Assembly: GCF_004134775.1 (NCBI RefSeq)
Contig: NZ_SDOZ01000002.1
Location: forward strand, 966,005-1,030,004
Source of the DNA: Candidatus Borkfalkia ceftriaxoniphila
GTDB taxonomy: Bacteria; Bacillota; Clostridia; Christensenellales; Borkfalkiaceae
Reading direction: 5' to 3'
DNA length: 64,000 nt
The notes beneath the pieces were generated by a model. It searched no databases. It was not told the origin of the DNA and saw only the letters and a program-made list of their open reading frames with translations. This document shows, in pieces, positions 1 through 10,125 of the stretch (positions are counted from its first letter, which is position 1; each line of letters opens with the position of its first letter). The position numbers and the translations under genes are program-made.

Positions 1-626
<626 letters not shown>

Positions 627-9062: not shown

Positions 9063-9893
9063 TTATTTATTTAACAGTTTTTTTGCCATATCTTTTGTTC
9101 TTTCGTCAACAGAGCCGTTTGTATCCGAAACAATTTGTTGTAAAGCATTTTTATGCAAGCCCAACCGAAAAATTTCCTTACCCGCCCGAATTTTCTGCGT
9201 TTTGATTTCTTCGGAATAGTTTTCTTTTACGATATCCATTAAATCGGATTCCGAATAATTTTGCAAATATATATAATATTTTACAAAAAATAATTTTCCT
9301 GTTTTTAAAATTAAATTCGCGGCTGTCTGACTGTTTTTCTCTTTTTCTTGCAATAATTTTCTTTGCTTTTCCTGAATTACATAATCAGGAGGATTTTTTT
9401 TATTTTCTTGCCTTACATATAAATACGCGCGAAAACAAGAAATAGCGGCAATGAGTTTAGGGAAAAACAGTAAAAAGGCTAACATTAACACTAACGCGAA
9501 TATATAATCAAAAAATAAATAAAAGATTATACCAATCATTCCAAATAGATACCAAAGAATAAAAACGCTTTCTATAATTGACCAAATAAAAAGTTTTTTT
9601 TCCGCATTCCAAAATTTCGTTTCTATATCTCTTTCTTCTATATTTTGCATTTGCTTTTTCGTCAAGTTTTCATTTATTGGCTTAACATTTGAAATCATCC
9701 AACCGATTATAGAAGTGATCAATAAATATATATATAACCACCATGAAATATAAGAAACTGTCTTCCCTATAAGAGTAGAAATAAGTGCTCCTATAAATAT
9801 TAAAAAAATTAAAATCGTAAAAATGGTATACCCACTCTTTGCCCAAGCCAACTGTTTGAAGATACGTTTATCTTCATAGTTTTTCATTTGCAT
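9063..9893 (-). CDS. Hypothetical multi-pass membrane protein, first gene of AT-rich pair
   Basis: A 276-residue protein with four hydrophobic helices (two pairs, about residues 22-45 and 52-70, then 110-130 and 135-160) followed by a long charged cytoplasmic C-terminal region of about 110 residues, rich in Lys and Glu and probably helical. No family recognised. The ATG at 9893 has AAGGAG 8 nt upstream and is preferred over the ATG at 9911, which would overlap the terminator-like T tract. It follows a structured leader RNA (9911-10048) and is followed by the gene at 8581-9048. AT-rich relative to neighbours. Confidence 0.65.
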   Translation of the reverse strand: MQMKNYEDKRIFKQLAWAKSGYTIFTILIFLIFIGALISTLIGKTVSYISWWLYIYLLITSIIGWMISNVKPINENLTKKQMQNIEERDIETKFWNAEKKLFIWSIIESVFILWYLFGMIGIIFYLFFDYIFALVLMLAFLLFFPKLIAAISCFRAYLYVRQENKKNPPDYVIQEKQRKLLQEKEKNSQTAANLILKTGKLFFVKYYIYLQNYSESDLMDIVKENYSEEIKTQKIRAGKEIFRLGLHKNALQQIVSDTNGSVDERTKDMAKKLLNK

Positions 9894-9910
9894 AACAATT
9901 TCTCCTTGCA

Positions 9911-10048
9911 TAAAAAAAAGTGTGCCTCAACAAGTGAGACACACCCCGAAAATGTACCTCGCTTGTTGCGACACAATTCTCCCTAACAGGAAAAGGAAGT
10001 ACAAAATCGCATAGTTGTACTCCTGTCAGGAATATTGAATTGTGTCGC
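9911..10048 (-). ncRNA. Structured leader RNA / attenuator-like element ahead of the AT-rich pair
   Basis: The promoter at 10083-10055 should start RNA near 10048, exactly at a 12-bp perfect stem (GCGACACAATTC 10048-10037 with GAATTGTGTCGC 9979-9968). Inside it a 9-bp stem (CCTGACAGG with CCTGTTAGG) and a 6-bp stem (GTACAA with TTGTAC) continue the rod. Next, CAACAAGCGAG (about 9967-9957) can pair with CTCACTTGTTG, which overlaps the 5' arm of an intrinsic terminator (9944-9920) followed by T8. The ribosome binding site of the membrane protein comes about 10 nt later. It may be a cis-acting switch or a free small RNA; I do not recognise a known class. Confidence 0.6.
9912..9944 (-). terminator. 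Terminator in the leader ahead of the 9063-9893 gene
   Basis: On the minus strand a 10-bp stem (GTGTGTCTCA / TGAGGCACAC, 5-nt loop) is followed by T8. One pair is G-U only when read from the minus strand and would be a C-A mismatch on the plus strand, which indicates selection for minus-strand transcription. Confidence 0.75.
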
Positions 10049-10054
10049 ATTTTC

Positions 10055-10083
10055 ATGATATCATAACCGGGAAAATTTGTCAA
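10055..10083 (-). promoter_or_regulatory. Promoter of the leader RNA and AT-rich gene pair
   Basis: Minus-strand TTGACA (10083-10078), 17 nt, TATCAT (10060-10055). The predicted start lies 7 nt further on, at the foot of the long stem. Confidence 0.8.
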
Positions 10084-10086
10084 TAT

Positions 10087-10125
10087 AAAAACCCCTTTCC
10101 GATAATCACGGAAGGGGGTTTTTAT
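10087..10125 (-). terminator. Terminator after jag
   Basis: A stem of about 15 bp (AAAAACCCCCTTCCG with CGGAAAGGGGTTTTT, 7-nt loop) just after the jag stop codon. It ends the rpmH-rnpA-yidD-yidC-jag unit. Confidence 0.85.

Follow-up and report, generated by a model that had tools for sequence, protein, structure and literature searches.

In Candidatus Borkfalkia ceftriaxoniphila, a leader RNA composed of a long rod, an apical hairpin and an intrinsic terminator precedes the gene of a predicted membrane protein, and its sequence and relatives point to a cis-acting transcription attenuator, probably riboswitch-like (probability about 0.8), in which a linker would choose as its partner either a strand of the apical hairpin P3 or the terminator. 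Comparison across the family found what generally marks an attenuator, namely conserved, mutually exclusive terminator and antiterminator helices. The DNA analyzed, referred to here as the window, is the whole stretch of 64,000 nucleotides. An earlier reading of the window by sequence alone (the original prediction) had drawn attention to this leader; it did not extend to a pseudoknot partner, to a regulon of many copies or to surface genes as a theme, all of which are described below.

Architecture of the leader RNA and its surroundings

The features of the leader and its neighbors are collected in Table 1. After the −10 element of the promoter come five nucleotides (10054-10050), then T10049, then P1, a spacing that would place the start of the RNA at the foot of the rod. 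Positions 9905-10055 were predicted to fold at −59.4 kcal/mol, as compared to a mean of −32.4 kcal/mol for shuffled sequences (z −7.49), and 0 of 200 shuffles were as good. Sequence and fold thus bear out the original prediction of a promoter followed by a 12-bp perfect stem with further stems inside it. Its proposal that a segment after this stem could pair with the 5′ arm of a T8 terminator likewise held: an antiterminator pairing between 9966-9950 and 9946-9930, with one internal mismatch, is possible in the window and covers the terminator 5′ arm and loop. The ribosome binding site of the membrane protein follows the terminator directly, as had been stated. Since linker bases are common to the antiterminator and to the pseudoknot with P3, these two pairings are mutually exclusive.

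Table 1 Features of the leader RNA and adjacent elements in the window
Feature	Positions	Strand	Basis and remarks
Hairpin resembling a terminator, between jag/khpB and the leader promoter	10113-10097	−	Sequence
Promoter TTGACA-17-TATCAT, TG before −10	10083-10055	−	11/12 consensus matches; sigma-A-type
Rod P1, 12-bp perfect closing stem	10048-10037/9979-9968	−	Predicted fold; rod overall 10048-9968
Rod 5′ bulge AAUA, 4 nt	10036-10033	−	Predicted fold
Rod P2, 12 bp	10032-10021/9991-9980	−	Predicted fold
Apical hairpin P3, 6 bp, 10-nt loop	10020-10015/10004-9999	−	Predicted fold
Rod 3′ bulge	9998-9992	−	Predicted fold
P3 3′ strand and bulge, UGUACUUC	10003-9996	−	Pseudoknot partner of linker 9960-9953, GAGGUACA
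Small pseudoknot extension, CGA with UCG	10009-10007 with 9949-9947	−	Sequence
Linker AACAAGCGAGGUACAUUUUCGGG, 23 nt	9967-9945	−	Partners: P3 3′ strand (pseudoknot) or 9946-9930 (antiterminator)
Intrinsic terminator, 10-bp stem	9944-9935/9929-9920; loop 9934-9930; T8 9919-9912	−	Fold and sequence
Downstream gene, 276-aa predicted membrane protein	9893-9063	−	ORF; ATG 9893, AAGGAG upstream
Second gene, 155 aa, start 14 nt past previous stop	9048-8581	−	PF18491 (SRA) 32.5 bits, cut-off 30.2

The 276-aa membrane protein matched no Pfam family above cut-off, and a protein search returned one other homolog (P0002). The two proteins are identical at both ends, over 18 N-terminal and roughly 110 C-terminal residues, and diverge in the intervening membrane part, in a mosaic pattern. 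A weak C-terminal relative (39% identity over 79 residues) is encoded at locus L059, where an RNA copy also lies ahead of the gene. Relatives that keep the gene thus offer little by which to judge conservation of the stems: the protein search gave one close homolog, the one locus with a distant relative carries the RNA, and elsewhere the stems precede other genes. The 155-aa gene is probably the second gene of the membrane protein's operon; a PF18491 (SRA) match beside a membrane protein gene is unusual. Part of a 16S rRNA gene occupies the window edge (1-625, minus strand).

Homologs, distribution and copy number

Relatives of the jag protein share up to 71% identity, and two from Candidatus Borkfalkia records share 69% and 68%. 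BLAST of the leader against 55 jag loci gave nothing better than E 0.025. When the genomes of 23 jag relatives were searched by BLAST, before any RNA model, three yielded clear homologs of the leader (85%, 80% and 73% identity), and a fourth contained a copy of the same anatomy with an identical core of 20 bases; none of the four lies on the jag contig. Covariance model R1 was built from the window copy and these four homologs, and R2 from 100 copies, the window copy being in the training set of both. With the family model, the window copy, which contributed to training, scores 117.8 bits on the minus strand, as compared to 26.8 bits on the plus strand.

At the loose threshold of E ≤ 0.1, R1 had matches in 282 of the 398 genomes drawn from the family of genome G003. 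With R2 at E ≤ 0.001, matches were obtained in 101 of 396 genomes from the order and in 80 of 391 from the class, the order and class draws including members of the narrower groups, such as G003 itself. We take these ranks to be Borkfalkiaceae, Christensenellales and Clostridia, with names from GTDB. In a phylum draw of 249 genomes, the query genome alone matched, with 0 of the 248 others at E ≤ 1e-5. At most 7, 7 and 8 candidates were scored per genome in the family, order and class draws, and copy numbers from these draws are therefore lower bounds. The named relatives are mostly metagenome assemblies, judging by record titles.

Seventeen chosen carriers exhibited 6 to 13 matches each under lax filters, a range that includes opposite-strand echoes of the palindromic rod (one in G004 and two in G040, each of which has 6 without echoes), and 20 chosen genomes without an R1 match still had none. 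These 37 genomes were hand-picked from the extremes of the family draw, in which many have 1 to 5 matches, and therefore give no estimate of frequencies. Tandem copies, on one strand and less than 300 nt apart, occur at L105, L117, L118, L129, L134 and L164; the second copy at L105 shows decay of P1 and a promoter-like sequence of its own.

Alignments A3 and A4 hold 127 rows, of which 124 are distinct and 123 can be split into linker and terminator. A further alignment (A7) contains 27 copies from the class draw that lie outside the model and outside the gene census, among them near-identical pairs (e.g., L214/L216 and L215/L221). The combined length of P1 and P2 is mostly 23-26 bp in A3, and in A7 peaks at 24-25 and 31-34 bp with few copies between, the two peaks differing by about one helical turn. 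In 93 of 124 copies, the model start lies 5 nt past the end of the −10 element, and in 101 copies TG stands in front of this element; for these counts, the promoter script chose another hexamer pair in the window copy.

Covariation and fit of the alternative helices

A covariance search of homologous leaders had been suggested with the original prediction, and it found the stems conserved and covarying across many of them. Among 100 distinct copies, P1, P2, P3 and the terminator were paired in 96.0% of cells, with changes on both sides in 39 of 43 pairs, and the rod and terminator together gave 905 compensatory cells as compared to a shuffled mean of 232.6; these counts lean to the model, the alignment having been fitted to that structure. 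In the same copies, each modeled pair of P1, P2 and P3 exhibited at least one both-side change, and the terminator stem was 97.6% paired.

The linker is single-stranded in the model, and its pairings therefore provide a fairer covariation test from the same alignment. Across the 100 copies, the antiterminator was paired in 92.9% of cells, with both-side changes in 8 of 10 pairs and 107 compensatory cells (31.7 in shuffles). The pseudoknot was paired in 87.3% of cells, again with both-side changes in 8 of 10 pairs, and gave 67 compensatory cells (28.2 in shuffles), while 133 of 500 shuffles reached the observed number of varying pairs and 121 of 500 the number of pair types. The small pseudoknot extension was paired in only 74.9% of cells.

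Fit between partners was assessed by swapping them among the 123 divisible copies. The duplex of linker and terminator averaged −15.8 kcal/mol in native combination and −10.7 kcal/mol when swapped, the native pair beating the median swap in 118 copies; for linker and P3, the values were −15.2 and −12.4 kcal/mol, with the native pair ahead in only 98 of 123. Both native means fell below all 10,000 permutations. The 27 copies outside the model, some of them near-identical, gave −15.7 kcal/mol versus −10.3 kcal/mol swapped for the antiterminator (native better in 25) and −16.4 versus −11.9 kcal/mol for the pseudoknot (native better in 24), and pseudoknots of about 14 bp or longer are possible in these copies.

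When linker and terminator were folded alone, the terminator state was favored over the antiterminator state by a mean of 2.0 kcal/mol, and the two lay within 4 kcal/mol of each other in 88 of 123 copies. Shuffled linkers reached only −7.3 kcal/mol in the antiterminator state, as compared to −14.8 kcal/mol for native ones. In the window copy, the antiterminator is predicted at −14.4 kcal/mol, the terminator with a linker hairpin at −16.3 and the pseudoknot duplex at −15.4. Because the terminator state is slightly more stable on average, energy alone is no sign of switching; near-equal alternative states would nonetheless be what a switch needs, short of proof.

Two further readings of the leader are addressed by these comparisons. 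The long inverted repeat, present in several and sometimes tandem copies per genome, might be an invertible or mobile DNA element with P1 as its arms, and DNA inversion often affects surface genes. P1, however, varies by paired changes (both-side in 13 of 13 modeled pairs) and is not one fixed site. The repeat does not include the promoter, the conserved unit also takes in linker and terminator, and the window copy found no match in phage or plasmid collections. Such an element is thus very improbable, and it was rejected. Leader-peptide attenuation, with ribosomes on a short apical ORF controlling the stems, could draw on the AGGAG and the 9-codon ORF from AUG 10012 seen by eye in the apical part of the window copy. 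An ATG after a Shine-Dalgarno-like stretch is found in the rod in only 17 of 124 copies, whereas 80 of 124 have a GGCA loop instead, and this mechanism, the least probable of those considered, was rejected.

Some positions keep their sequence itself, beyond pairing: those of P1 (G..ACAYAA), the RCAA start of the linker and, by eye, the A-rich 5′ bulge. Because these parts conserve more than pairing, our guess would place a sensing core in them. Sequence kept at P1 and RCAA is also what a protein binding site might show. A protein-operated attenuator, with an RNA-binding protein holding the linker or P3, would have the same anatomy and constitute a special case of the attenuator favored here; the presence of 6 to 13 copies in the 17 carriers and none in the 20 other genomes, hand-picked extremes as these are, looks as if a trans factor were shared. 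No co-distributed factor emerged among those tried, however (CAT_RBD in 0/37 genomes, a second NusG in 0/37, and ANTAR in 5/17 carriers versus 9/20 non-carriers), and we regard a protein sensor as possible though doubtful.

Downstream genes are biased toward lipoproteins

Downstream of 118 of the 124 copies, an ORF of 50 aa or more was called, its start codon at a median of 30 nt past the model end. Of the rest, five yielded no ORF call, at least one of them at a contig edge, and one yielded only a 46-codon ORF cut off by the contig end. A census of the 90 genes that encode 80 aa or more and start no farther than 100 nt away, made with simple patterns of our own, detected a lipobox signal in 59. 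Among the other genes of these loci the signal occurred in 7 of 128, and among genes around jag in 15 of 195. The remaining downstream genes comprised 16 with other membrane segments, 10 with an N-terminal zinc ribbon and 5 with none of these. Downstream proteins that begin with a zinc ribbon recur (L095, L097, L108, L113, L115, L119, L122, L180, L184, L188 and L192). At L136, L203 and L204, the copies stand ahead of small-protein genes that by eye resemble DNA-binding regulators.

For Pfam analysis, 110 genes passed filters of length, distance and duplication, and 105 were scanned, the doubtful ORFs L088, L110, L127, L178 and L203 being omitted. BspA-type repeats (LRR_5) were present in 43 of the 105 proteins; the window gene is not of that kind. 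LRR_5 genes occur in 36 of the 37 genomes and do not separate carriers from non-carriers. They are found in 19 of 20 close copy-free genomes, where such genes therefore manage without the RNA.

The original prediction had left the choice between an attenuating switch and a stand-alone small RNA, the latter a terminated transcript of about 137 nt acting in trans while the downstream gene uses its own promoter. The switch has gained, with an antiterminator that covaries in 100 copies without being modeled and 27 further copies that agree, and the small RNA has become unlikely. A promoter and a terminator are present, the rod is stable, and in 29 of the 118 cases the called gene starts more than 60 nt away, all as a small RNA would allow. 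Against it stand the 89 called genes that start within 60 nt, the strong downstream bias to lipoprotein genes, and a linker covarying with the terminator arm, which has no evident use in a plain small RNA.

Comparison with known regulatory RNAs

A known Rfam 15 class was rejected, no model having recognized the RNA in 45 sources (at least two copies are contained twice, as L057/L086 and L059/L093), and the statement that no known class has this shape is thus borne out for Rfam 15. At gathering thresholds, the window and 40 loci gave no match at the RNA and only an rRNA fragment and tRNAs elsewhere, and relaxed scans of L056-L059 and of window positions 9890-10100 returned only matches far below gathering scores. 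No paper joining Borkfalkia and riboswitches was found, and none on an antitermination leader RNA with a pseudoknot before leucine-rich repeat surface proteins; among papers on BspA and riboswitches, titles and opening lines disclosed none on this RNA. On the strength of these literature searches and Rfam 15, the family is apparently undescribed. Fremin and Bhatt 2021 describe 3161 candidate RNAs of human microbiomes, some with terminators (PMC8040213), whose unnamed members may include a fragment of the present RNA.

Transcription-attenuating riboswitches resemble this leader in having one strand with two exclusive partners and a terminator opposed to an antiterminator. In contrast to attenuating riboswitches in general, a second alternative helix, the pseudoknot with the apical hairpin, covaries here, the unit is conserved from promoter spacing to terminator, and a ligand is only hypothetical.

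In T-box leaders, a long 5′ stem lies ahead of a terminator and an antiterminator that compete with each other, and amino-acid genes lie downstream. The present RNA shares the long 5′ stem ahead of the competing helices. It differs in that no T-box match was found in the window or 40 loci with Rfam, which we take to hold a T-box model, and in that the classified downstream genes mostly encode envelope proteins.

In RAT leaders (LicT/BglG), a short hairpin is bound by a CAT-domain protein, and an RNA helix overlapping the terminator prevents termination. A helix overlapping the terminator is common to both, whereas the Rfam bglG-cis-reg model scores 17.3 bits here against a gathering score of 80. 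LicT-type control is unlikely, as no CAT_RBD was detected in the 37 genomes (17 carriers among them), with the control matched in 4 of 14 named genomes. Likewise, a LoaP-type NusG paralog is unlikely, with 34 genomes having one NusG, none found in 3, and a second in 0 of 37. Antitermination by ANTAR proteins employs an RNA of two short hexaloop hairpins; for the ANTAR distribution given above, the control matched in 0 of 14 genomes.

c-di-GMP riboswitches occur in several copies per genome and in tandems. The present RNA is reminiscent of them as a multi-copy leader before surface-protein genes with tandem arrangements, and is unlike them in being a long two-stem rod. Rfam, which presumably holds models of both classes, gave no match to c-di-GMP class I or II in the window or 40 loci. 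Control by c-di-GMP is unlikely, GGDEF having exceeded the cut-off in only 1 of 17 carriers, a set outside which the window's genome lies. All 17 carriers had a c-di-AMP cyclase, as did 17 of the 20 non-carriers, a distribution too even to judge c-di-AMP by; it is a possible signal. In Bacillus thuringiensis, according to one report, a c-di-GMP riboswitch leader can precede a surface-protein gene (PMC7423583). Because 16 of the 17 tested carriers are without a GGDEF match over the cut-off, the RNA described here, if indeed a new riboswitch class, may stand in for c-di-GMP riboswitches as the carriers' surface-gene control.

Proposed mechanism and implications

In the attenuator that we favor, RNA polymerase would start at the foot of the rod, and the linker, once made, would have two possible partners. 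Were it to pair with the P3 3′ strand, the pseudoknot would leave the terminator hairpin to form and the transcript would end at about 137 nt. Were P3 to keep its own 3′ strand, the free linker would pair with the terminator 5′ arm, and the polymerase would enter the gene. We infer the default state and the direction of control. A signal, whether metabolite, ion or protein, would presumably shift the balance, and its likeliest point of action would be the positions that keep their sequence. With a rod of about 25 bp and a connection of only about 6-8 nt between P1 and the pseudoknot pairing, the pseudoknot may require a bend.

Tentatively, and at somewhat less than even odds, the family could represent a new riboswitch class of much of Clostridia, with up to about a dozen copies per genome, through which one intracellular signal would set the surface lipoproteins expressed, many with BspA-type repeats, by a contest among apical hairpin, pseudoknot and terminator. 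Since the expression platform, and not only the possible sensing part, covaries in 100 copies, paired changes can test each alternative pairing. A multi-copy regulatory RNA with heavy covariation and no Rfam match would, in our judgement, interest any RNA biologist. The RNA would define a surface-protein regulon in Clostridia known largely from metagenome assemblies, so that little-known surface genes gain a common control point, and what the RNA senses becomes a question that can be tested in vitro.
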